A DNA stretch of 64,000 bases from Saprospiraceae bacterium (lineage in GTDB: Bacteria > Bacteroidota > Bacteroidia > Chitinophagales > Saprospiraceae), in contig JALHLK010000004.1 of assembly GCA_022844565.1 (NCBI GenBank), positions 1 through 64,000 of the forward strand, read 5' to 3'. The number at the start of each line of letters is the position of its first letter. Position 1 is the stretch's first letter. The translations under genes were made by a program, and so were the position numbers. The notes under the pieces were generated by a model that saw only the letters and a program-made list of their open reading frames with translations, had not been told where the DNA came from and did not search any database. Below, piece after piece: positions 13,821 through 44,583 of this stretch.

Positions 13821-13985
13821 TGTGTGTATAACAAATTGCACAAAAATGTTTTTGATTTTACCCACTAACTCCCTTGAAAGGGAAAACCAAATCAAAAACA
13901 TTTTAAAATTTGGCTTATGGCTCTCTTTAGAGCTGCGGGGTAAAACATAGACCAATTTTTCAGAAGTGCAATTTGTTATTCACAA
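13821..13985 (-). mobile_element. MITE, copy A (inverted relative to copy B)
   Basis: The 165-bp element starts TGTGTGTATAACAAATTGCAC and ends with the complementary GTGCAATTTGTTATTCACA. Inside is a perfect 16-bp inverted repeat (13843-13858 with 13889-13904) and a second, weaker hairpin (about 13905-13960). The same sequence in opposite orientation is found at 33783-33956. It is flanked by near-identical 8-bp sequences (GTTTGATG at 13813-13820 and TTTTGATG at 13986-13993), consistent with a target-site duplication. It encodes no protein, so it would need a transposase supplied elsewhere. Confidence 0.8.
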
Positions 13986-14015
13986 TTTTGATGTTTTAGG
14001 TCAAAAGATTGATAA

Positions 14016-33760: not shown

Positions 33761-33782
33761 AGAGAAGCTTCAAACTCTAAAA

Positions 33783-33956
33783 TGTGTGTATAACAAATTG
33801 CACTTCTGAAAATTTGGCCTATGTTTTGCCCCGAAGCCCTACAGGGAGCCACAGGTCAAATTTTAAAATGTTTTTGATTTGGTTTTCTCCCGACATGTTA
33901 TCGGGAGAGTTAGTGGGTAAAATCAAAAACATTTTTGTGCAATTTGTTATACACAT
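33783..33956 (+). mobile_element. MITE, copy B, with 8-bp target-site duplication
   Basis: The 174-bp element has 19-bp perfect terminal inverted repeats (TGTGTATAACAAATTGCAC at 33785-33803 and its complement at 33937-33955). It is flanked by CTCTAAAA on both sides (33775-33782 and 33957-33964). The empty form of this site, with a single CTCTAAAA, is in the paralogous repeat at 36057-36064, which defines the insertion exactly. Inside, AAAATGTTTTTGATTT-type arms form one hairpin and a second hairpin has CTCCCGA/TCGGGAG, so the element folds as an outer stem with two inner hairpins. No transposase. Confidence 0.9.
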
Positions 33957-33992
33957 CTCTAAAAATCCTTAAGCAATTCCTTCAGAAATCCT

Positions 33993-34000
33993 TATCTTTG
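33993..34000 (+). promoter_or_regulatory. Candidate -7 element (TATCTTTG) upstream of the PIN pseudogene
   Basis: TATCTTTG fits TAnnTTTG and is repeated at 36093-36100 upstream of the crp-like gene. No clear TTG lies at the -33 position in either copy. Confidence 0.4.
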
Positions 34001-34080
34001 TAGTCGGAAAAGCAGAGACATAAGTCTTGAATCAGTAATTCGCTATTTGATTATTCAAATTACTTGAATGAAAAGTATAA

Positions 34081-34667: not shown

Positions 34668-35858
34668 ATGAAATTATTATTACCAATAAACGTAACTGCT
34701 TCTTTACTTTTAGTCATTGTCACCAATTGTATAGCACAAATTGACAAGTCATCAATTAAAATGGAAGCAGGAAAAGGGATTCAATTTACATCTGCAGATT
34801 CGTCCTTTACGATAGCAATTGGTGGGAGAATTCAAAGCGTATTTGAGGCCAAAAAAGATGTCACAAATGAAACTACAGGTGCAGACTTTATACTTCGAAG
34901 GAGTCGTTTAAATATACAAGGAAACGCATTTAATCCTAAGTTGTCATACCGTATTCAATTGGGTTTTGCTCATGGGGACATCACCTCTGCAAATAGTTCA
35001 GTGCAAAACAATTTAATCTTGAGAGACGCAATGTTATTTTATGATGCGAATAAATGGGTTCGTATCGGTTTTGGACAAACTAAATTACCAGGCAATAGGC
35101 AAAGACTAGTTTCTTCGGCCAATCTTCAATTGGTGGAACGTTCGATCTCAAACAACAATTTCACATTGGATAGAGATAAAGGTATATGGGTATACACCAA
35201 TTTTCAGATTAATAAAGCAGTGTTTAAATCAACAATTGCCATATCAAGTGGCGAAGGTCGAATTGTATCTGACAAAAACGGTAAGCTTTGTTATTCTGCT
35301 AGAGCTGAATTTCTTCCTTTTGGAGATTTTTCAAAAAAAGGAGATTATATTCAATCCGATATTGAAAAAGAAAAAAAACCTAAGCTTTCTATTGCAGGTG
35401 TTTATAGCTTTAATGAATCCTCACCTAGAGTAATGGGTCAGTTAGGCGATTATTTATATAATTCAGAAATTGCAAATATTCAATATTATGGAGCTGATTT
35501 AATTTTTAAATACAAAGGTTTTTCTATTGAATCAGAATTCTACACCAGAAATTCTAATACGGGTATAATTACAAATATTAAAGAATCAACACAGCGTAAT
35601 TATATAATAGCAGGAAATACATTTTTTATTCAATCTGGGATTTTTATTACCAAGAAAAATGAAATTGCAGCCAGATATGCACAAATTACTCCCGATAATT
35701 CAGTTGCTTCAGTTATGAATAGGCAAAAAGAGTATGTAATCGGCTTGTCCCATTATTTTAATAAACATAGTTTAAAATTACAATCTGATGTAACCTATTT
35801 AATAAATGGAGATGATAAAAATTTAATTTACAGACTTTCTAGCGTCGTTGCATTCTAA
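34668..35858 (+). CDS. Outer-membrane porin, OprO/OprP-like
   Basis: The 396-aa protein has a signal peptide (MKLLLPINVTASLLLVIVTNCIAQ, cut around residue 24) and a repeated amphipathic beta-strand pattern through to a C-terminal aromatic-hydrophobic end (YRLSSVVAF). The segment DFILRRSRLNIQGNAFNP followed by YRIQLGFAHGD is the N-terminal signature of phosphate-selective porin O/P-type proteins in Bacteroidota. It would form a 16-strand pore, but substrate selectivity cannot be inferred. It stands alone. Confidence 0.8.
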   Translation: MKLLLPINVTASLLLVIVTNCIAQIDKSSIKMEAGKGIQFTSADSSFTIAIGGRIQSVFEAKKDVTNETTGADFILRRSRLNIQGNAFNPKLSYRIQLGFAHGDITSANSSVQNNLILRDAMLFYDANKWVRIGFGQTKLPGNRQRLVSSANLQLVERSISNNNFTLDRDKGIWVYTNFQINKAVFKSTIAISSGEGRIVSDKNGKLCYSARAEFLPFGDFSKKGDYIQSDIEKEKKPKLSIAGVYSFNESSPRVMGQLGDYLYNSEIANIQYYGADLIFKYKGFSIESEFYTRNSNTGIITNIKESTQRNYIIAGNTFFIQSGIFITKKNEIAARYAQITPDNSVASVMNRQKEYVIGLSHYFNKHSLKLQSDVTYLINGDDKNLIYRLSSVVAF

Positions 35859-36252
35859 AAGAAAAACCCATATGGGTAGTGACTATAGAAAAAGACGATG
35901 TCAAAGAAAAAGGCCTTTGTGAAGTATTAAATACCTAGTATGTACGTGCGGTTGAATGGTACCTTCCGATAGGTCATATGCAAAATAGCACCCAGCTAGG
36001 TTTGATGTAGTAAATTTAATACTTCTTCTTTACTTTAGTACAAGAGAAGCTTCAAACTCTAAAAATCCTTTAGCAATTCCTTCAGAAATCCTTATCTTTG
36101 TAGTCGGAAAAGCAGAGGCATAAGTCTTGAACCAGTATTCCGCTCTTTTCTAAATAAAATATGGTTAAAGTAACAAAAAGTTGATATTGTGAGCCATATA
36201 ATTTTTATTTCATATATATCAAGAGACAATAACAAAACGACATCTAACAACA
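35859..36252. repeat. Spacer with nested inverted repeats and direct-repeat copy 2
   Basis: GAAGTATTAAAT (35921-35932) is exactly complementary to 36014-36025, and inside it ACCTAG (35934-35939) pairs with CTAGGT (35997-36002), forming a 105-bp hairpin-like structure. From 36043 to 36145 the spacer holds the uninterrupted copy of the 33761-34044 repeat. No gene is visible. Confidence 0.5.
36043..36145 (+). repeat. Direct repeat, copy 2 (empty MITE site)
   Basis: This copy reads CAAACTCTAAAAATCCTT without the MITE, and preserves TATCTTTG at 36093-36100. It is the reference for the insertion in copy 1 and lies upstream of the crp-like gene at 36253, so it may drive that gene. Confidence 0.75.
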
Positions 36253-36828
36253 ATGCAAAACATACTATTTGACTTCATAGCAAAATACATTACGCTGACA
36301 GAAGAGGAGAAGAACGCAATACTTTCGTTAGACCTTTTTCGCACGGTAAAGAAAGGAACAATTGTACTCAAAGAGGGACAAAAATCAAACAATGGTTACT
36401 TTGTATTAAAAGGTTGTATCAGGACATATTACGTAATAGACGGTGAAGAGAAAACTACAGCTTTTTATACAGAGATGGAAGGTTTGACACCCTCGTGTGC
36501 AATAAGTAATGGTCCATCTGAATATTATATAAGCTGTTTGGAAGACACCATCCTCGCAGTTTCAAATCCAGATATGGAAGTAGAAGTAAACAGAAAATTT
36601 CCAAAGTTTGATATCATGTGCAGAGTATTGTCAGAAGAGTTGTTAGTCAAAAAACAACTAGACTTTGATGAATTTAAAACCTCTTCCCCCGAGCAACGAT
36701 ACATCAACCTCCTAGAAAAAAGACCTGACTTGGTCCAACGTGTGCCTCAACATCAGATAGCTAGTTATTTAGGTATCAAACCTCAATCTTTGAGTAGATT
36801 GAGAGCAAGAATTTATGAGAAAAAGTAG
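36253..36828 (+). CDS. Crp/Fnr-family transcriptional regulator
   Basis: The 191-aa protein has a cyclic-nucleotide-binding-like beta barrel (about 20-115, with LFRTVKKGTIVLKEGQKSNN and YFVLKGCIRTYYV) and a C-terminal winged helix whose recognition helix is in HQIASYLGIKPQSLSRLRAR (about 167-186). The cAMP-contacting arginine/glutamate signature is not present, so the ligand is uncertain. Downstream lies an outer-membrane protein gene with a TTCAC-TTAA-GTGAA palindrome, a plausible binding site. A 39-codon remnant of a second copy is at 43199. Confidence 0.88.
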   Translation: MQNILFDFIAKYITLTEEEKNAILSLDLFRTVKKGTIVLKEGQKSNNGYFVLKGCIRTYYVIDGEEKTTAFYTEMEGLTPSCAISNGPSEYYISCLEDTILAVSNPDMEVEVNRKFPKFDIMCRVLSEELLVKKQLDFDEFKTSSPEQRYINLLEKRPDLVQRVPQHQIASYLGIKPQSLSRLRARIYEKK

Positions 36829-36943: not shown

Positions 36944-37030
36944 ACTAATAAAGACATTGCCATTTTTAACTTTAATTAAATTTAGAAGCATTTTGATTTC
37001 AACTTAAAAAAGTAGAATTAAACGTATTTC

Positions 37031-37075
37031 TTCACTTAAGTGAACGACTCTCCGCAATAGACCAATCTACCTTTG
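37031..37075 (+). promoter_or_regulatory. Operator-promoter of the first outer-membrane protein gene
   Basis: The perfect palindrome TTCACTTAAGTGAA (37031-37044) has its centre 30.5 bp upstream of the -7 element TACCTTTG (37068-37075). That is the place and shape of a Crp/Fnr-family activator site (half-sites TTCAC/GTGAA). An equally spaced copy precedes the paralogous gene at 43500, and a related site precedes 37906. Binding by the adjacent Crp-like protein is inferred. Confidence 0.65.
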
Positions 37076-37097
37076 CAGTATATAAATAAATACATAC

Positions 37098-37721
37098 ATG
37101 CAAAAGAAAATTTTATTCATTGGTTTTGTCTTATTCATGACAACCACCCTCCAACTCAAAGCTCAAAATGACCCATCAGACAACACCAATAAAAAATGGT
37201 TTGTAGGGAGTTCACTCTTGATGTTAGGAAATTTTATTCCTGATGACCCAAATCCTCCCAAGTATTTACAATTGAATGTAGGGTATAGAGTTACTCCTAA
37301 AGATGTGGTGCAATTTAGATTTAAAAAGTCTCAGTATACTTGGCCACTTGGTATCCCTTTTGGACCGGATTTTGATGCACCTGGTCTAAACTACCCTGGA
37401 CATGCCCGTATCCTTGCTCCTCAAATTGGGTATCAGCGATTTTGGTGGAAAGGACTCTATTCATCTGTTTATGTCTTGAATGCTTTTGAAAAATATGTTG
37501 ATGAAAATAAAAAAAAGCTGGGAAATGGTTTCACATTGTATACAGACTTCTATTTAGGTTACCAGTTTAGGTTTTTTAAAGGCCGCTTTTTTTTCGAACC
37601 AGCAATTGGATGTAGCTATTGGCCAGTAAGATCTAATGTACCCGAATCTTTTAAAAGGGTAGAACAAAAATGGCCTAATTACTTTATTCAGCCTGGGCTT
37701 GATTTTGGGTTTAATTTCTAA
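37098..37721 (+). CDS. Small outer-membrane beta-barrel protein, paralogue 1
   Basis: The 207-aa protein has a signal peptide (MQKKILFIGFVLFMTTTLQLKAQ, cleavage after about residue 23) and about eight amphipathic strands ending in IQPGLDFGFNF, a typical C-terminal outer-membrane insertion signal. Family unknown; DUF3575-like is possible. It is 30-40 percent identical by eye to the paralogue at 43500 (shared FVLFMTxTLQLKAQ, WFVGS, LNVGYR, YQRFxWKG). It follows the crp-like gene and has its own operator-promoter. Confidence 0.78.
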   Translation: MQKKILFIGFVLFMTTTLQLKAQNDPSDNTNKKWFVGSSLLMLGNFIPDDPNPPKYLQLNVGYRVTPKDVVQFRFKKSQYTWPLGIPFGPDFDAPGLNYPGHARILAPQIGYQRFWWKGLYSSVYVLNAFEKYVDENKKKLGNGFTLYTDFYLGYQFRFFKGRFFFEPAIGCSYWPVRSNVPESFKRVEQKWPNYFIQPGLDFGFNF

Positions 37722-37820
37722 GCATTAAGAACAACACACTTTTTTGTACATAAAGACCAATTGATTTTATAAACTTAAGTCAATAGCAAGAGCTATACTG
37801 CCATTAATAAGTTTCAAAAT

Positions 37821-37864
37821 TTAACTTATGTTAATTTGTATCAATATCAATGTTATTACCTTTG
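37821..37864 (+). promoter_or_regulatory. Operator-promoter of the EreA/ChaN-like gene
   Basis: TTAACTTATGTTAA (37821-37834) has perfect half-sites TTAAC/GTTAA around a four-base spacer. Its centre is 29.5 bp upstream of TACCTTTG (37857-37864), nearly the same geometry as the sites at 37031 and 43426. The start codon is 41 bp downstream. Confidence 0.55.
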
Positions 37865-37905
37865 AGCAAATTTTATGATTTCGAGTCCTTCATTAAAGTA
37901 CTAAA

Positions 37906-39087
37906 ATGCAAAAGATCTTACTTGTTACAATTTTTTTAGTCAGTTATTTTAACACATTCTCTCAATCAGAAAGTGAGAAATATCTTTTAAAAAAAGACAT
38001 CATGAATAAGTTGACTACAGATTCTGTATCTTGGAAATTCCAAACTGCAGCTGTAGAATACTCCTTTATTGGCGATTATAAAGCAGCTCTTAGCACATGG
38101 GATCAAGGTCTTAGTACAAAATCATACATTCCTACTCAACAGGATAGTACTATATTGTCAATAGCTAATATTGTAAACGCTAAAGACTATATCATCAATA
38201 GGGCAAAAGACGAGCAAATCATCATCATCAATGAGGCCCATCACAATTCGAGACATAGGGTATTTACAGCATCACTTTTAGAAGGGTTGTACCAGCAAGG
38301 ATATCGCTATTTGGGTCTAGAAGCTATATGGGATACCACTATTAATAATCGAGCATATGCAATCCAATCAAGTGGTTATTATACTGCAGAACCCGAATTT
38401 GGCAACATGATTCATACAGCGCGAAGTCTTGGTTTTATAGTATTTGGATATGAAGCCAAGGGTGGCGAAAATGGAAAAGAAAGAGAAATAGCCCAAGCTA
38501 ATAACATCAAAGCATTTTTGGACCGAAATTCGGATGGAAAGTGTCTAATTCATTGCGGTTATGACCATGTAATGGAAGGCGAAGTACGAAGTTGGGAAAA
38601 AGCAATGGCGGGTCGAATCAAAGAATACACAGGCATCAATCCTTTCACAATAGATCAGGTTAAATTTTCTGAAAAAAGCAAAGCCGATTATTCGCACTAC
38701 TTCGTATATAGTACTCAAGAAGAAAAACCTTTCGTTTTAAAGATAAGGGATAGTCTCCTATTCAATGGTTTAACGGACCCTAAACAGACAGATGTTACGG
38801 TCATCCACCCGATATCCCATTACGATAAAGGGAGACCTAAATGGATGGCTGAGCAAAGGCAAGAATATCTATTGTCCCGAGTTCATTTAGATAAAATGAA
38901 CTTCCCTCTACAGATACTTGCCTACAGAAAAGGCGAATACCAAAACAATGGAATACCGGCTGATATCATCGAGATCGAGACTTCTGATGAAAATAAGGCA
39001 TTGTATTTAGAAAAAGGTAAATATGAGATCATCTTACGGAATGGTCGATATGAAATATTAAAACAGTTTGATATCAACATCAATTAA
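37906..39087 (+). CDS. Secreted EreA/ChaN-superfamily-like protein
   Basis: The 393-aa protein has a signal peptide (MQKILLVTIFLVSYFNTFSQ). The core segment IIIINEAHHNSRHRVFTASL, later GLEAIW and LIHCGYDHVMEGEV, resembles the EreA/ChaN/TIKI-like fold, where paired histidines and glutamates form the active centre; erythromycin esterases belong here. The assignment rests on these motifs and is moderate. It could be a metal-binding or hydrolytic envelope protein. It carries a Crp-type operator and is followed 20 bp later by an alpha/beta hydrolase gene. Confidence 0.6.
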   Translation: MQKILLVTIFLVSYFNTFSQSESEKYLLKKDIMNKLTTDSVSWKFQTAAVEYSFIGDYKAALSTWDQGLSTKSYIPTQQDSTILSIANIVNAKDYIINRAKDEQIIIINEAHHNSRHRVFTASLLEGLYQQGYRYLGLEAIWDTTINNRAYAIQSSGYYTAEPEFGNMIHTARSLGFIVFGYEAKGGENGKEREIAQANNIKAFLDRNSDGKCLIHCGYDHVMEGEVRSWEKAMAGRIKEYTGINPFTIDQVKFSEKSKADYSHYFVYSTQEEKPFVLKIRDSLLFNGLTDPKQTDVTVIHPISHYDKGRPKWMAEQRQEYLLSRVHLDKMNFPLQILAYRKGEYQNNGIPADIIEIETSDENKALYLEKGKYEIILRNGRYEILKQFDININ

Positions 39088-39107
39088 TACCTGCAAAATA
39101 AAGATAT

Positions 39108-39995
39108 ATGTCACTAAGCATCGGTTATTATATAGTACTTTTTGTCTTAAAAATTAAAAGAGTCAAAAAAGTGTTTAGCAATGACCCAATTGAGTACCTG
39201 AAAATCAGAAAAGACGATGTTTTGAATCCATCAAATAGATACCTTAGAAAAAATATAAATCGAAAATTTAAAGTATCGGACACAGAAATAACTGAAATTG
39301 CAAAAAGCGTAAAATCAGATACATTAGTGATATATATTCATGGAGGAGCTTTTGTATGCGGCCCCGCACAACACCACTGGGATACAGTGGCTGAAATATC
39401 TAAAAAGACCAAAAATGTTATTTGGATGTGTGTATATCCTAAAGCACCTGAGACTAATATCACAGACATAAATACAAATATTGATCAAGTTTATGCACAG
39501 GCTTTGACAGAATATAAAGCTCAAAATATTGTGTTATTGGGAGACTCAGCCGGTGGTACCCTGATTTTAACCTTAACACAAAGACTCATTAGCAATCAAT
39601 TTACTATTCCAAAAAAAATAATTTTAATCTCACCAGTCATAGACGCATCATTACAAAATCCTGATATCGAAAAAGTTGAACCACTGGATCCTATGCTTGG
39701 TATCAATGGAGTACGCAGTGCTAAGAAATTGGCAGCGGGTCAATTGTCTTTGATAGATTCTGCAATATCCCCAATTTATGGCACATTTAATGGATTCCCT
39801 CCTACCATTTTATTTGCGGCTGAGTACGACATCACCTATCCTGATCAAATCAGACTAGCCAAATTATTAAATGAAAATAATATTGAAAATCAGCTGATCA
39901 TAGGTGAAAAGATGCCTCATATTTGGCCTTTGTTGCCTGTCATGAGAGAAGGTAGAGCAGCCCTAGATGAAATTATTGAAGCGTTGATTGCTTAG
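39108..39995 (+). CDS. Alpha/beta hydrolase, hormone-sensitive-lipase-like family
   Basis: The 295-aa protein has the HSL-family oxyanion motif HGGAF (in IYIHGGAFVCGP), the nucleophile elbow GDSAGG, a DP-x-x-G motif (PLDPMLGI), an aspartate in AAEYDITYPDQ and a late histidine in EKMPHIWPLLP. These make a full catalytic triad for a carboxylesterase or lipase. There is no clear signal peptide, though the N terminus is hydrophobic (LSIGYYIVLFVLKI) and may anchor it. It is probably in an operon with the preceding gene. Confidence 0.88.
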   Translation: MSLSIGYYIVLFVLKIKRVKKVFSNDPIEYLKIRKDDVLNPSNRYLRKNINRKFKVSDTEITEIAKSVKSDTLVIYIHGGAFVCGPAQHHWDTVAEISKKTKNVIWMCVYPKAPETNITDINTNIDQVYAQALTEYKAQNIVLLGDSAGGTLILTLTQRLISNQFTIPKKIILISPVIDASLQNPDIEKVEPLDPMLGINGVRSAKKLAAGQLSLIDSAISPIYGTFNGFPPTILFAAEYDITYPDQIRLAKLLNENNIENQLIIGEKMPHIWPLLPVMREGRAALDEIIEALIA

Positions 39996-40089
39996 TTTTT
40001 AAAAATTCATAAAAAAATAGTCCTATCTTAGTGATTTATAATTTTTACCTAAAAATCGAATAACAGTTTAATGTTTAATAACACCTTTT

Positions 40090-40119
40090 GCAACCAAAGT
40101 TGAATTTGCTGGTCTAATA
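40090..40119 (+). promoter_or_regulatory. ECF-type promoter of the sigma factor gene (GCAACC-N16-GTCTAATA)
   Basis: The -35-like GCAACC (40090-40095) and -10-like GTCTAATA (40112-40119) are separated by 16 bp. The same pair with the same spacing precedes the membrane-protein gene at 41200. The AAC core of the -35 and GTC of the -10 are hallmarks of ECF-sigma promoters, so autoregulation is likely. The ATG is only 6 bp after the -10, implying a leaderless or nearly leaderless mRNA. Confidence 0.7.
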
Positions 40120-40125
40120 TGCAAT

Positions 40126-40689
40126 ATGAGCAATATAGTGGATCATCTTTCTGACAAAGTGATTGTTACAAATATCTTGAATGGAAACATTCAGGGCTTT
40201 GCTGCCGTGGTGGCAAATACAGAAAGATTGGTAACTCAAATTGTCCGAAAAATGATACCTGATGAAGATGATCAAAAAGACCTTGTACAAGATATATATT
40301 TAAAGGCTTACAAAAACTTGTCAAGCTTTCAATTCAAATCTAAGTTATCAACGTGGATTGGTAATATTGCTTACAATACGACTATTAATTATCTTCAAAA
40401 GAAGCGAGTGTCAATAGTTGGTATTGAAAGTCAAATTGAAAATTCTATTGTTGAATTTGATAATTCAGAGATGTCAACCATCAAAACTGAAGAACTAGAC
40501 ATTCTTGTTAAAGAAATAGCCAAACTTCCACCTTTATACAAAACATTGATTACGCTATATCATTTAGAAGAATTGCCTAACAAGGAAATTGCAGAAATCA
40601 CTAATTTACCTGAAGGTACTATCAAAAGTTACCTATATCGAGCGAGAAAAATGCTTAAAGACGGTATCAATTATCATTATAAAAATTAA
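40126..40689 (+). CDS. ECF-family RNA polymerase sigma factor
   Basis: The 187-aa protein has region 2 (VTNILNGNIQGFAAVVAN, then DDQKDLVQDIYLKAYKNLSS, about 14-75) and region 4 with a helix-turn-helix (ELPNKEIAEITNLPEGTIKS, about 150-170). It would direct transcription from promoters such as GCAACC-N16-GTCTAATA, seen upstream of itself and of 41200. It is followed 5 bp later by a gene for a zinc-ligand-bearing membrane protein, the probable anti-sigma factor. Confidence 0.92.
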   Translation: MSNIVDHLSDKVIVTNILNGNIQGFAAVVANTERLVTQIVRKMIPDEDDQKDLVQDIYLKAYKNLSSFQFKSKLSTWIGNIAYNTTINYLQKKRVSIVGIESQIENSIVEFDNSEMSTIKTEELDILVKEIAKLPPLYKTLITLYHLEELPNKEIAEITNLPEGTIKSYLYRARKMLKDGINYHYKN

Positions 40690-40694
40690 GAATT

Positions 40695-41141
40695 ATGAAA
40701 AATAACCATTTGACTGACGAAATCTTACAAACATTACTCTTAAATGAAGTACAAGATGAAATCGTAGATAAACACATTTCTGAGTGTCAAGTATGTCAAG
40801 AAAAAATGAAAAACTATCAATTTTTATTTACAAGTATCAAGAAAGTTGAGCCAGAAACCTTTTCTTTTGACGTTACTTCCCTCGTGATGGAAAAAATTTA
40901 CGAAGTGGAAATAAAAAAAGAGAAAAACGCAAACATTGCGCTGTATATGTGTTTGTCTATCATTTTAATAATTGTATTCATTTTGCTATATCCTTATGTA
41001 AAAACAATTTTTTCTCAATTCAAATCTTCTTCAATAATGGCAAATGCTTTTATGATGGTTTCTTCCTTGGGGGTTACGATTTTCTTATTAAAAGATATAT
41101 ACAGACAATACAAACGAAAAGAAATGTTGATTTTGCAATAA
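40695..41141 (+). CDS. Probable membrane anti-sigma factor
   Basis: The 148-aa protein has a cytosolic N-terminal domain with a ZAS-like H-x3-C-x2-C motif (HISECQVCQE, about 29-38) and two membrane helices (about 77-95 and 110-130). These features and its position directly after the ECF sigma gene support a role in holding the sigma factor inactive until an envelope signal arrives. The zinc-binding motif looks complete. The signal is unknown. Confidence 0.75.
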   Translation: MKNNHLTDEILQTLLLNEVQDEIVDKHISECQVCQEKMKNYQFLFTSIKKVEPETFSFDVTSLVMEKIYEVEIKKEKNANIALYMCLSIILIIVFILLYPYVKTIFSQFKSSSIMANAFMMVSSLGVTIFLLKDIYRQYKRKEMLILQ

Positions 41142-41147
41142 AATTTT

Positions 41148-41177
41148 GCAACCAAAATCTGTATTAGAAGTCTAATA
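41148..41177 (+). promoter_or_regulatory. ECF-type promoter of the 41200 gene (GCAACC-N16-GTCTAATA)
   Basis: GCAACC (41148-41153) and GTCTAATA (41170-41177) repeat the promoter at 40090 exactly in both boxes and spacing, in otherwise different flanking sequence apart from the TTTTGCAACCAAA extension. The ATG follows 23 bp after the -10 element. Confidence 0.72.
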
Positions 41178-41199
41178 AAGTATAAAAAAAGATAAAAAA

Positions 41200-41643
41200 A
41201 TGAAAAAATTATTCGTAATTATCATAAGCATAGCTTCATCAATCCTTGTTTTTGGTCAAGATTCTACTCCAACCATTCCATCATCCACACAACAATCATT
41301 GGAGGGCAATAATAATTATGCTTTAATAAGTTTCGCTCCTATTTTTGCTATTGCACTAGTTGTGATATTGGTCATTCAAGTCACAAGATATATTTTGGCT
41401 CATAAACTTAAAAATAAAATAATAGACAGAGGTATTTCCGAACAATTAGCTAATTCTATTTTAGAAAAAAGTGAAACCGATAAAAAAGAGGATAGTATTA
41501 AATGGGCTATTTTGCTTTTAGGTGTAAGCGGTGGGCTTACTGCTGCTTACTATACTAAGCCGTTAGATATACATTCTATTGCTATTATTACATTCAGTAT
41601 CGGGTTGAGTTACTTGGCTTATTACTTCTATCTCCGCAGATAA
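41200..41643 (+). CDS. Small membrane protein of the ECF regulon (DUF6249-like)
   Basis: The 147-aa protein has a signal-like N terminus (MKKLFVIIISIASSILVFGQ), a membrane helix (about 47-68), a charged cytosolic loop with KNKIIDRGISEQLANSILEK, and two final helices. It resembles DUF6249 proteins, commonly next to ECF sigma genes in Bacteroidota. Its own promoter has the same ECF signature as the sigma gene, so it is a target and perhaps part of the signalling loop. Confidence 0.7.
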   Translation: MKKLFVIIISIASSILVFGQDSTPTIPSSTQQSLEGNNNYALISFAPIFAIALVVILVIQVTRYILAHKLKNKIIDRGISEQLANSILEKSETDKKEDSIKWAILLLGVSGGLTAAYYTKPLDIHSIAIITFSIGLSYLAYYFYLRR

Positions 41644-41765
41644 AAACCACTCCTTCAAACAATCTATTTTACTGTACTATTTTAACCTTCACCTTGTGAT
41701 ATAGGTACCTTATTGCACAAAAATCAATTTATTTTTATTTAAATCATTTTTAAAATAATTAAACA

Positions 41766-43139
41766 ATGAAATATTCTTTCATCTTAACTTCTCTTTTTGT
41801 TGTTCAAATAGTTTTCGGACAAAACCGAATTCAAAAAATTGATAGCCTATTAAATACATTATACCTTGGTGGACAAATTAATGGAAATTTTTTGATAGCC
41901 GAACAAGGTCAAGTACTTTATAATAAAAGTTTTGGAATTGCAAATGAGCAAACAAGACAACCGCTCAACGAACATTCGATATTTGAAATAGCTTCTGTTA
42001 CAAAACAATTTACGGCTATGGCAACTATGATACTCCATGAAAAAGGCAAACTAAACTTAGATGATAATTTATCCAAATTTATACCTGAGTTATCTTTTTA
42101 TGAAGGCGTAACAATTAGACATTTACTTAACCATACGAGTGGCTTACCTGATTACATGGAATTATTTGAAAGCCATTGGGATAAATCAAAAATCGCAAGA
42201 AATAAAGATGTTATAACATTCCTTGCTCAGAAAAAACCTAAAGCACTTTTTGCTCCAAATACAAAGCATGAATATAGTAATACAGGCTATGCATTATTGG
42301 CATCAATTGTTGAGAAAGTATCTGGAGTCACCTACGATAGCTATTTACAAAAAGCTATATTTAAACCTTTAAAAATGAATAATACTTTTGTTTACAAACG
42401 AAGATTAGCTCCCAAAAATATCAATAACTATGCTTTTGGCTATGTCTTTTCCGATAGTTTGAAAAAATATGTTTTACCCGATGATTTAAATCAGACAAAG
42501 GAGGTTATTTGGTTAGATGGAGTTGTAGGAGATGGTGGGGTAAATTCTACTGTAAATGACTTATTGAAATGGGATAGGGCATTATATACCAACAAACTCT
42601 TGTCAAAGAAAGGAATGAAGGAAATATTTAATCTTACAACGTTAAGTGATAATTCTCAAATTAAATATGGTTACGGTTGGCAAATCGATAATCACGCTGA
42701 ATTTGGAAAAATAGTTTATCACGGTGGAGGTTGGCCTGGGTATGCTACTTTTTTTGCTAGACATATTGATGATGATAAAACAATCATCATGCTTCAAAAT
42801 CATGATAACATTACTTTGCCTTTAAATCAGATTAGAAATATTTTATATGATAAAAATGAAATATTGAAAGTAGCCATAAGTAATGAGCAATTACAAAAAT
42901 TTGTTGGAGCTTATGAAATTCAGCCAGGATTTACAATTGAAATAGAAAGGCAAAACGACCAACTTTATGGCAAAGCAGCAGGCCAACCAACCCTAGAACT
43001 TACTCCTGAAACAGAAACCAGTTTTCTATTAGCAGAGATTGGAGCTCAAATTGTATTTAATTTTAATACTGAAGGAGTCATAAAAAGCCTAACATTTTCT
43101 CAAGGAGGTATGAAAATCGAAGGAAAAAAGGTAAAGTAA
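41766..43139 (+). CDS. Serine hydrolase of the beta-lactamase/penicillin-binding-protein fold (class C-like)
   Basis: The 457-aa protein has a signal peptide (MKYSFILTSLFVVQIVFGQ), the SxxK motif SVTK (77-80), YSN (170-172) and HGGG (319-322) in place of KTG. These are the three motifs of the class C beta-lactamase/DD-peptidase/esterase superfamily. After residue about 365 comes a small beta-rich C-terminal domain (VGAYEIQPGFTIEIERQNDQ). The activity is probably peptidase or esterase, and antibiotic hydrolysis cannot be assumed. No operon partners. Confidence 0.9.
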   Translation: MKYSFILTSLFVVQIVFGQNRIQKIDSLLNTLYLGGQINGNFLIAEQGQVLYNKSFGIANEQTRQPLNEHSIFEIASVTKQFTAMATMILHEKGKLNLDDNLSKFIPELSFYEGVTIRHLLNHTSGLPDYMELFESHWDKSKIARNKDVITFLAQKKPKALFAPNTKHEYSNTGYALLASIVEKVSGVTYDSYLQKAIFKPLKMNNTFVYKRRLAPKNINNYAFGYVFSDSLKKYVLPDDLNQTKEVIWLDGVVGDGGVNSTVNDLLKWDRALYTNKLLSKKGMKEIFNLTTLSDNSQIKYGYGWQIDNHAEFGKIVYHGGGWPGYATFFARHIDDDKTIIMLQNHDNITLPLNQIRNILYDKNEILKVAISNEQLQKFVGAYEIQPGFTIEIERQNDQLYGKAAGQPTLELTPETETSFLLAEIGAQIVFNFNTEGVIKSLTFSQGGMKIEGKKVK

Positions 43140-43198
43140 CAAGTTGAAATTTGGGTTAAGAAACTTAGGTATTAGCAATTTATTATTCAATTTATGCT

Positions 43199-43361
43199 AT
43201 GCAAGATATACTATTTGACTTTATATCTAAATACATTAATCTGTCTGATGGAGAAAAGGCTTCAATCGCTTCTATTGACATTTTTTACTTTATGAAGAAG
43301 GGTACTATTATTGAATAGCTACATTTTTCAACCAGGGCTAGATTTTGGTTTTAATTTTTAG
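43199..43361 (+). pseudogene. Fused remnant of a crp-like gene and an outer-membrane protein gene
   Basis: The first 39 codons (MQDILFDFISKYINLSDGEK, then KKGTIIE, stop TAG at 43316-43318) are homologous to the N terminus of the Crp-like protein at 36253. Immediately after, in the next frame, 43320-43361 reads YIFQPGLDFGFNF and a stop, which is the exact C terminus of the outer-membrane protein family (37098 and 43500). A deletion between a crp-like gene and the following omp gene explains it. It lies 140 bp upstream of the intact paralogue 2. Confidence 0.85.
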
Positions 43362-43425
43362 TTCTATTCTCGAAAAAAAAGATTATATTAAGATTATTTG
43401 GGTGAGAAATCTGGACACACATTTC

Positions 43426-43470
43426 TTAACTTAAGTGAATGTTTTACCTAAACTTACCTATTTACCTTTG
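43426..43470 (+). promoter_or_regulatory. Operator-promoter of the second outer-membrane protein gene
   Basis: TTAACTTAAGTGAA (43426-43439) and the -7 element TACCTTTG (43463-43470) have the same 30.5-bp centre-to-TA distance as the 37031-37075 module. The left half-site has one change from the perfect palindrome. This conservation in otherwise divergent upstream DNA argues for function. Confidence 0.65.
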
Positions 43471-43499: not shown

Positions 43500-44126
43500 A
43501 TGATTAAAAAATTCTTATTTGTTAGTCTTGTCTTATTCATGACAAGTACGCTCCAACTCAAAGCACAATATTCTAAATCAGACACCGACTATAAACGATG
43601 GTTTGTTGGTAGTACAATGTTTATATTCGGCAATTTGTCTACCGTAAATCCCCCCAACTTTGCCCAACTCAATGTTGGCTATCGTATCACAGGAAGAGAT
43701 GTAATTACTTTAGAACCAAAAACTTGGAAATATGCTTGGCCGAATGGTATTCACCCATTTTTTAACAAAGCATACGGAAAGGATGAAGAAAAATTTCCAG
43801 GGTATGTTCGAGAGATAGGATTATCATTGTCTTATCAACGATTTTTTTGGAAAGGTATATATGCCGAACTTAATGTAATGCCTTCTTTACAGCATATTAT
43901 GAACGAAGAAGGTGAAAAAATTGAAAATGGTTTTCAGATTTTTAATACTTATCGTGTTGGTTATCATATCAAACTTTTTAAGGACAGATTTTTTATTCAA
44001 CCATCGCTTGCCATTACCCACCGTGCTCATCACACAACAATGCCTAATGGATTTAAACAGTTGGATGATAAGTGGTCTAAATTCATCTACGGAGAACCAG
44101 GTTTTCATATTGGTTTTAATTTTTAA
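43500..44126 (+). CDS. Small outer-membrane beta-barrel protein, paralogue 2
   Basis: The 208-aa protein has a signal peptide (MIKKFLFVSLVLFMTSTLQLKAQ), the shared motifs RWFVGSTMFIFGNL, LNVGYR and YQRFFWKG, and ends GEPGFHIGFNF, matching paralogue 1. It is expected to form an eight-strand outer-membrane barrel of unknown role. A DUF6326-like membrane protein gene starts 10 bp downstream, so the two are probably co-transcribed from the Crp-type promoter at 43426. Confidence 0.78.
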   Translation: MIKKFLFVSLVLFMTSTLQLKAQYSKSDTDYKRWFVGSTMFIFGNLSTVNPPNFAQLNVGYRITGRDVITLEPKTWKYAWPNGIHPFFNKAYGKDEEKFPGYVREIGLSLSYQRFFWKGIYAELNVMPSLQHIMNEEGEKIENGFQIFNTYRVGYHIKLFKDRFFIQPSLAITHRAHHTTMPNGFKQLDDKWSKFIYGEPGFHIGFNF

Positions 44127-44136
44127 CTGAAATCAT

Positions 44137-44583
44137 ATGGATACACAATATACACCTCAAAGTGCTCTGGAAGACATCAAAATCAATGTAAAACTGAAGC
44201 TTGCCTCGTTGTGGGCAAGCTTGATGTTTCTCTATATCTACATTGATTATTTCCACTTTTACATGCCTAATAAGATTGCAGATATACAAAAGGGTAGGGT
44301 ATTCGTATTTGATATTACACAAGGATTTCTTTTGGCTGCATTTTGTTCAATGACAATTCCCGCACTCATGATTTTCTTTTCTGTTTCCTTATCGGCTAAG
44401 GTAAATCGATGGACAAATATCATTGTTGCCACGATATTTATTCCCTTTACATTGTTCAATTTGGCAGGAGAGGCATGGATGCATATGGTGTTAGCCGCTA
44501 TTGTAGAAGTTGCACTTTTGTGTCTAATTGTCCACTATGCCTGGAAATGGCCTCGAATTGAAATATCAAACAAAAAGTCATAA
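44137..44583 (+). CDS. DUF6326-like integral membrane protein
   Basis: The 148-aa protein has four membrane helices (around 22-45, 62-84, 92-110 and 114-135) and a segment ALEDIKINVKLKLASLWASL that I associate with DUF6326. Function unknown. It is 10 bp after the outer-membrane protein gene, sharing its promoter. Confidence 0.7.
   Translation: MDTQYTPQSALEDIKINVKLKLASLWASLMFLYIYIDYFHFYMPNKIADIQKGRVFVFDITQGFLLAAFCSMTIPALMIFFSVSLSAKVNRWTNIIVATIFIPFTLFNLAGEAWMHMVLAAIVEVALLCLIVHYAWKWPRIEISNKKS

Follow-up and report, generated by a model that had tools for sequence, protein, structure and literature searches.

A candidate Crp/Fnr-regulated outer-membrane protein cassette with a highly conserved operator in Bacteroidota

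Which genes, if any, does a Crp/Fnr-family regulator control from a set of palindromes lying beside its own gene? The question is raised by a 64,000-nucleotide stretch of a Saprospiraceae bacterium genome (contig JALHLK010000004.1 of assembly GCA_022844565.1; hereafter the window), in which such a gene is followed by three TTnAC-N4-GTnAA sites, each placed before a promoter box of the same sequence. An initial annotation of the window proposed that the sites form a small local regulon with class II-like activation of two paralogous outer-membrane protein (OMP) genes and of a secreted EreA/ChaN-like gene. Having compared the locus with its relatives, we consider it probable that the window carries a self-contained cassette in which the Crp/Fnr regulator activates one or two small beta-barrel OMP genes, often accompanied by a gene of the DUF6326 family.

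Palindromes and promoter boxes in the window

The regulator gene (36253-36828; all genes and sites located here are on the forward strand) encodes a protein of 191 amino acids that matches PF00027 (E 8.9e-8) and is modeled with a Crp/Fnr fold. It starts where the initial annotation had placed it, upstream of the first palindrome, and ends 202 bp before that site; the sequences and coordinates proposed for the three palindromes and their TACCTTTG boxes are likewise correct. Operator 1 has the core TTCACTTAAGTGAA (37031-37044) within a 20-bp block, TTTC-TTCACTTAAGTGAA-CG (37027-37046), and is followed after 23 bp by the -7 promoter box TACCTTTG (37068-37075) of OMP1 (37098-37721). Operator 3 has the core TTAACTTAAGTGAA (43426-43439) within the block TTTC-TTAACTTAAGTGAA-TG (43422-43441) and lies 23 bp before the -7 promoter box TACCTTTG (43463-43470) of OMP2 (43500-44126), a paralogue 41% identical to OMP1. 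Between them, site 2, TTAACTTATGTTAA (37821-37834), has a TACCTTTG box (37857-37864) after a gap of 22 bp and precedes the EreA/ChaN-like gene (37906-39087).

The loose palindrome alone is not rare, the window having five against 2.27 expected. A site followed by TAnnTTTG at a gap of 22-23 bases occurs three times (gaps of 23, 22 and 23 for the sites at 37031, 37821 and 43426) and in none of 150 first-order Markov simulations of the window; at gaps of 18-28, the same arrangement has a simulated mean of 0.02. Genome-wide, the loose motif shows no enrichment (173 places versus 238 for the pattern read backwards), a result that the initial annotation had named as evidence against a regulon. We do not read it as such, because the regulon is local. 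A tighter form, TTNACTTANGTNAA, occurs at nine places in the 5.6 Mb genome, versus seven for its reversed control, and only the window's three have TAnnTTTG 22-23 bases further on.

CRP at class II promoters is centered at -41.5. For the sites described here, a position can be read from the -7 box TAnnTTTG, which lies at -12 to -5 in Flavobacterium psychrophilum according to PMC9723704. With that placement, a gap of 23 puts the operator at -49 to -36 with its center at -42.5, and a gap of 22 puts the center at -41.5; the sites would be centered near -41.5 and overlap the -35/-33 region. The constant class II-like geometry of the initial annotation is supported.

The operator and its spacing are conserved before OMP genes

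Related loci were found with a 13-row regulator alignment, and the 80 regulator-centered loci considered here are the best 80 of at least 541 confirmed relatives; with the window they make 81. For 77 of the 80, the DNA behind the regulator has an OMP-family gene in the same orientation, no more than 561 bp away and in 73 cases within 110 bp. The distance from regulator end to OMP start has a median of 87 bp, with 85 of 96 distances falling within 70-110 bp, and is 272 bp in the window. Where no OMP gene stands directly behind the regulator, the loci can be informative: in L092 and L097 a DUF6326 gene lies directly behind the operator, and in L125, as judged by eye, roughly the signal-peptide region is all that is left of the OMP gene, while the operator and promoter before it are intact.

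We compared TTAACTTAAGTGAA with the DNA upstream of 96 distinct first OMP genes, counting as distinct those with different protein sequences and keeping near relatives in. It is present exactly before 68 and at 12 or more of its 14 bases before 91, a match that 0.09% of shuffled upstream sequences reach; 34 of 44 later OMP genes have it at the same threshold. Alignment of 130 sites (131 less one short row) extends the conserved block to TTTC-TTAACTTAAGTGAA-CG, with a far looser spacer behind it and with operator positions 1, 2, 5, 9 and 10 invariant. These sites were picked at 11 or more consensus matches, which biases the counts within the core upward; the flanks lay outside the choice. The spacing of the window's promoters recurs as well: 67 of the 91 first OMP promoters with the operator have an exact TAnnTTTG after a gap of 22 or 23 bp. 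In a 20-bp scoring matrix built from the related cassettes (maximum 36.5; members' 5th percentile 23.3, lowest member 2.1), the window's blocks starting at 37027 and 43422 score 33.4 and 32.0.

The operator is also nearly restricted to cassette genes. In 27 genomes chosen for carrying the cassette, the exact 14-mer TTAACTTAAGTGAA occurs 39 times, versus 4 for the reversed control, and is missing from one genome. All 39 occurrences were placed: 37 precede an OMP gene, one precedes DUF6326 beside the regulator (L192), and one, in L190, is part of a full promoter that leads into no OMP gene. Where the locus has no called regulator ahead of the OMP gene, 3 of 21 OMP genes have the operator at 12 or more bases, one of these being the window's OMP2 and some of the loci being cut. 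Three Runella genomes contain an unlinked OMP gene with the same operator and no regulator within at least 1 kb (L186, L188 and L228). When 20 OMP-bearing genomes were chosen, 10 had the regulator at E 1e-40 and 10 did not; the operator was found in none of the latter 10, whose OMP upstream regions match it at 10 of 14 bases at most.

Taken together, the linkage of OMP genes to the regulator, the conservation of the operator and its near-restriction to OMP genes argue that the sites at 37031 and 43426 probably belong to a dedicated local regulon whose geometry is class II-like. The small regulon first proposed is upheld in this respect for the OMP genes, and is unsupported for the EreA/ChaN-like gene as a regular target.

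Site 2 is a weak operator candidate without backing from relatives. It has 12 of 14 operator bases, a matrix score below 4, neither the TTTC nor the CG flank, and a T at a position where all 130 aligned sites have A. The gene behind it matches PF04187 at E 0.0063, under that family's cut-off. A search of 60 genomes for EreA-like genes returned the window's own and nine other matches in eight genomes, and at none of these nine loci, some of which are cut by contig ends, does a site score 3 or more; nor is the EreA/ChaN-like family among the neighbor families that recur in at least five loci. With no relative locus supporting the site at 37821, we reject the gene as a regular target and cassette member. 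A target specific to the window is conceivable, because the exact spacing is unlikely to have arisen by chance. A further site, which the initial annotation did not mention, lies at 37770-37783 (TAAACTTAAGTCAA), with TAAGTTTC standing 24 bp past it. Its 20-bp block at 37766 scores 10.7, above the block at 37821, and it is probably a decayed cassette operator. As relatives such as L030 carry an OMP2 with its own operator after OMP1, we infer that it may be the relic of a lost second OMP promoter.

The regulator and its mode of action

The regulator's N-terminal domain, which is of the cyclic nucleotide monophosphate (cNMP)-binding-like type (PF00027), scores 32.4 bits, above the cut-off of 27.5, and its C-terminal Crp-type helix-turn-helix (PF13545) scores 15.5 bits, below the cut-off of 27. 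The whole protein aligns with FNR and DNR by sequence, and its predicted structure (predicted local distance difference test score, pLDDT, 89.9) has a CRP/GlxR/FNR-like fold, with best Z scores of 17-18 over about 180-190 aligned residues. The nearest solved relative by sequence is 3dn7 (E 9.4e-37), a cyclic nucleotide binding regulatory protein of 194 amino acids from Cytophaga hutchinsonii, considered here through its structure entry.

A guess at the signal comes from the cysteines. We compared 54 regulator rows, thinned at about 85% identity, with 24 other Crp/Fnr proteins gathered in the analysis. C55, C82, C95 and C123 are present in 53, 46, 52 and 53 rows, and all four together in 44 of the 54 versus none of the 24; singly, C55 and C95 are also common outside the clade (11 and 10 of 24). 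Unlike the regulator, 3dn7 has no cysteine opposite C82 or C123 in the alignment. FNR, a 4Fe-4S oxygen sensor, has an N-terminal cysteine cluster and one internal cysteine, and the phosphate-binding cassette of cAMP-type CRP reads GE...R(S/T). Neither signature appears in this clade: any cysteine before residue 50 occurs in only 2 of 54 rows, the pattern GE.{6,12}R[STA] in residues 64-103 of none, and an arginine anywhere at 84-95 in 5. Four cysteines peculiar to the clade would fit a signal of the redox, metal or cluster kind better than a cyclic nucleotide.

The E. coli class II activators CRP and FNR share the cNMP-binding-like sensor domain, the C-terminal DNA-binding region and a palindrome with a 4-bp center, centered near -41.5. 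The cassette differs from them in that its operator also conserves the central TTAA and the TTTC/CG flanks, its half-sites are TTAAC/TTCAC and not TTGAT, its -7 box is of the Bacteroidota type, and the N-terminal cysteine cluster of FNR is absent. NNR/DNR-type regulators are related by sequence (DNR, 3dkw, E 7.3e-7), and their site, TTGAC-N4-GTCAA, is close to TTnAC-N4-GTnAA; their targets are denitrification genes, whereas the cassette's predicted target is an OMP gene.

We propose that a regulator dimer most likely binds TTTC-TTAACTTAAGTGAA-CG, centered near -42, at the place where a Bacteroidota -33 element would be. Through class II contacts, the bound regulator would then probably bring RNA polymerase to the TAnnTTTG -7 box and switch on the OMP gene or genes, and DUF6326 directly or by read-through. 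In the aligned sites, the -33 place is occupied by the operator's right edge and holds no TTTG; because of this and of the class II position, activation appears likelier than repression, as judged from geometry. The best surviving alternative is that the same regulator uses the same operator to repress the OMP genes, covering the -33 region until a signal releases it. With the box positioned as in PMC9723704, the right end of the operator falls on the place of the -33 element, where a bound protein would also block RNA polymerase. Yet promoters with no -33 TTTG of their own are expected to be weak without an activator, and repression has no need of a 22-23 bp spacing to exact -7 boxes, so we regard it as unlikely.

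Less probable still is that another of the cell's Crp/Fnr paralogues binds the operator and that its linkage to the gene at 36253 is incidental. The genome has 15 Crp/Fnr matches, counting this gene and a stump described below, and the recognition residues S181 and R182 are common to other Crp/Fnr proteins (24 and 23 of 24), which could bind related palindromes. However, the operator tracks this clade, as the 10 operator-less OMP genomes lacking the regulator at E 1e-40 indicate, and Q178 of the recognition helix is typical of it (48 of 54 rows versus 4 of 24). That the sites are alike merely because promoter DNA was duplicated, the adjacent gene having no regulatory part, is very improbable: the OMP1 and OMP2 paralogues can indeed be aligned from the operator into the gene (72% over 216 bp), but the operator is near-invariant where the spacer behind it has drifted, in 130 sites from many genera, which largely contradicts it.

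Several observations weigh against a cassette activated through this operator. A good operator is missing before 5 of the 96 first and 10 of the 44 later OMP genes, and 24 of the 91 operator-bearing first promoters have no exact TAnnTTTG at 22 or 23 bp, near forms of the box such as ATCTTTG being present in some of them. In G018, G223 and G416, three of the 10 chosen OMP-bearing genomes with a regulator at E 1e-40, the regulators are all more remote ones (163-236 bits), and the operator is absent from the OMP locus examined. An operator overlapping the -33 position could suit repression too. None of 99 regulator upstream regions has the operator at 12 or more bases within 150 bp of the gene, and autoregulation through the same site was rejected. 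Finally, the covariation of recognition helix and operator is muddied. GTCAA half-sites occur with 2 of 7 E178 and 0 of 123 Q178 regulators (Fisher p 0.0025, uncorrected for relatedness and with 10 operator-less OMPs dropped), and 5 of the 7 E178 operators resemble those of Q178 regulators. A link between residue 178 and half-site base 3, promising at first, became doubtful once E178 regulators with the usual operator were found. We discarded a possible inverted repeat within the spacer of 23 bp (seen as CGAGTTATGGCAACTCG at some loci), as 107 distinct spacers show no consistent pairing (best diagonal, 3 of 8 pairs at z >2).

Cassette members, spread and surroundings

OMP1 (207 amino acids) is predicted to be an eight-stranded beta-barrel OMP (model pLDDT 89.8), with a hydrophobic N-terminal helix as putative signal peptide, eight strands by DSSP on the model and a nearly invariant C-terminal Phe207. 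Its model resembles the small OmpA/OprF/OmpW-type barrels (Z 13.6 with the OprF N-domain, 12.8 with OmpA) and differs from them in sequence, with about 5-13% identity in the top rows. Foldseek with the model gave no match under E 0.001, and no Pfam family matches OMP1 at E 0.01; the widest-matching Pfam family takes in 10 of 80 OMP members at that threshold, with a best E of 0.0015. By its modeled fold, the protein may be a small pore, an adhesin or a stress protein.

DUF6326 appears to be a recurrent third cassette gene, which is a new observation here. It is present in 40 of the 81 loci, and all 41 copies share the regulator's orientation, a single copy lying 1 kb upstream instead of downstream; the runner-up among neighbor families reaches 12 loci. 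The window's copy, a membrane-protein gene, lies at 44137-44583 (PF19851, E 1.4e-10). A small lipoprotein-like gene (MTMKKISIYSVLLLLAVFLNSCG...) found in 12 of the 81 loci, mostly at +1310 to +1530 from the regulator start (for example L086:5492-5860), is an occasional extra member. One locus, L064, has two regulators with OMP genes between them.

Of 100 related genomes, counting the one that the window comes from, 17 have OMP1 relatives. The family is patchy, as only 26 of 395 genomes drawn from the phylum carry it in a search with an 18-OMP alignment. Between genomes of 12 genera, median identity is 82.6% for the regulator, 62.5% for the first OMP (paralogue types mixed) and 70.4% for GyrB. 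The regulator exceeds GyrB in 62 of 66 genome pairs, and the two are uncorrelated (rho 0.16, p 0.19). Horizontal spread of the cassette between Bacteroidota is likely, since the regulator is more alike between genera than GyrB and does not track it, though the high identity may in part reflect strong constraint on the regulator. Cassette neighbors vary among loci. The regulator tree has 20 changes of order versus a shuffled mean of 23.5; just 2 of 200 shuffles are as low, so some taxonomic signal is left, and good support is limited to 5 of 78 inner branches. Locus L097 (CP034120.1) is labeled Glaciecola amylolytica, a gammaproteobacterium, yet its cassette has a Bacteroidota-type promoter, pointing to cross-phylum transfer or a mislabeled genome.

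Plasmid carriage was rejected: a search of 72,556 plasmid records gave no match to the OMP and 92 to the regulator, all of the latter below 60% identity. Direct repeats and a GTTGGTGGCAAG leader ahead of the regulator had raised the idea of an integron cassette, which gains no support from a crude attC search. Our home-made, unvalidated detector gave 129 attC-type matches in 639 kb versus 90-107 in five simulated sets; in 5 of 80 loci, a match ended no more than 110 bp before the regulator. A leader close to GTTGGTGGCAAGTGTAACAGACGACAGTAACAACATAAAACA-ATG stands at about -45 to -1 of the regulator (L050-L129 and others), with at least 22 of 29 core bases in 29 of 98 upstream regions, the core having been chosen by eye and without a shuffled control; it may be an RNA leader, another promoter type or a cassette edge. 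TAnnTTTG lies within 90 bp of the regulator start in 11 of 99.

Tentatively, the cassette can be pictured as a horizontally spreading sense-and-respond surface module: a four-cysteine Crp/Fnr protein with few targets beyond its own travelling, new family of small OMPs and DUF6326, acting through one asymmetric 20-bp operator that is near-identical across the phylum. It is ordinary in kind and, as far as our searches reach, a new member, with an unusually invariant operator. The 14-mer and DUF6326 are each in no paper of the open-licence literature searched, and a survey of titles and abstract starts in that literature found no description of the cassette system. Operators have been established, to our knowledge, for few regulators of Bacteroidota. 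In the present case the regulator clade, operator, promoter geometry and targets are predicted jointly, in a group with culturable genera (Runella, Dyadobacter, Spirosoma, Pedobacter and Flavobacterium); the cysteine set is a concrete guess at the signal, and the regulator with its operator might be put to use as a compact switch in laboratory strains of Bacteroidota.

The window itself appears to hold one intact cassette, regulator and OMP1, and a second that survives as a regulator stump, operator, OMP2 and DUF6326. The stump is a 39-codon remnant of a second Crp/Fnr gene (43199-43318; 61% identical over 38 residues), followed by what is left of an OMP1-like gene, part of its 3' end (43320-43361; read from the sequence, repeat family D2) and then by the OMP2 operator. 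This order looks like the product of an internal deletion in a duplicate cassette. Between the two copies, at 40126-41643, lie an extracytoplasmic function (ECF) sigma factor gene, a gene in the anti-sigma place and a small membrane-protein-like open reading frame.

Repeats occur around the cassette. Direct repeats of about 60-360 bp, kilobases apart, lie upstream of the regulator in L050, L058, L069, L076 and L113. In the window, a 92-bp direct repeat (33957-34048 and 36057-36148; 93% identical) flanks an open reading frame at 34668-35858 that is porin-like by eye, and its second copy ends 105 bp before the Crp/Fnr gene, which suggests an insertion or duplication just upstream. The segments 13823-13989 and 33779-33955 are 85% identical over 177 aligned columns in opposite orientation, with terminal inverted repeats (GTGTATAACAAATTGCAC...). 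Both copies fold into a long hairpin (-73 and -51 kcal/mol), and the element looks like a miniature inverted-repeat transposable element.

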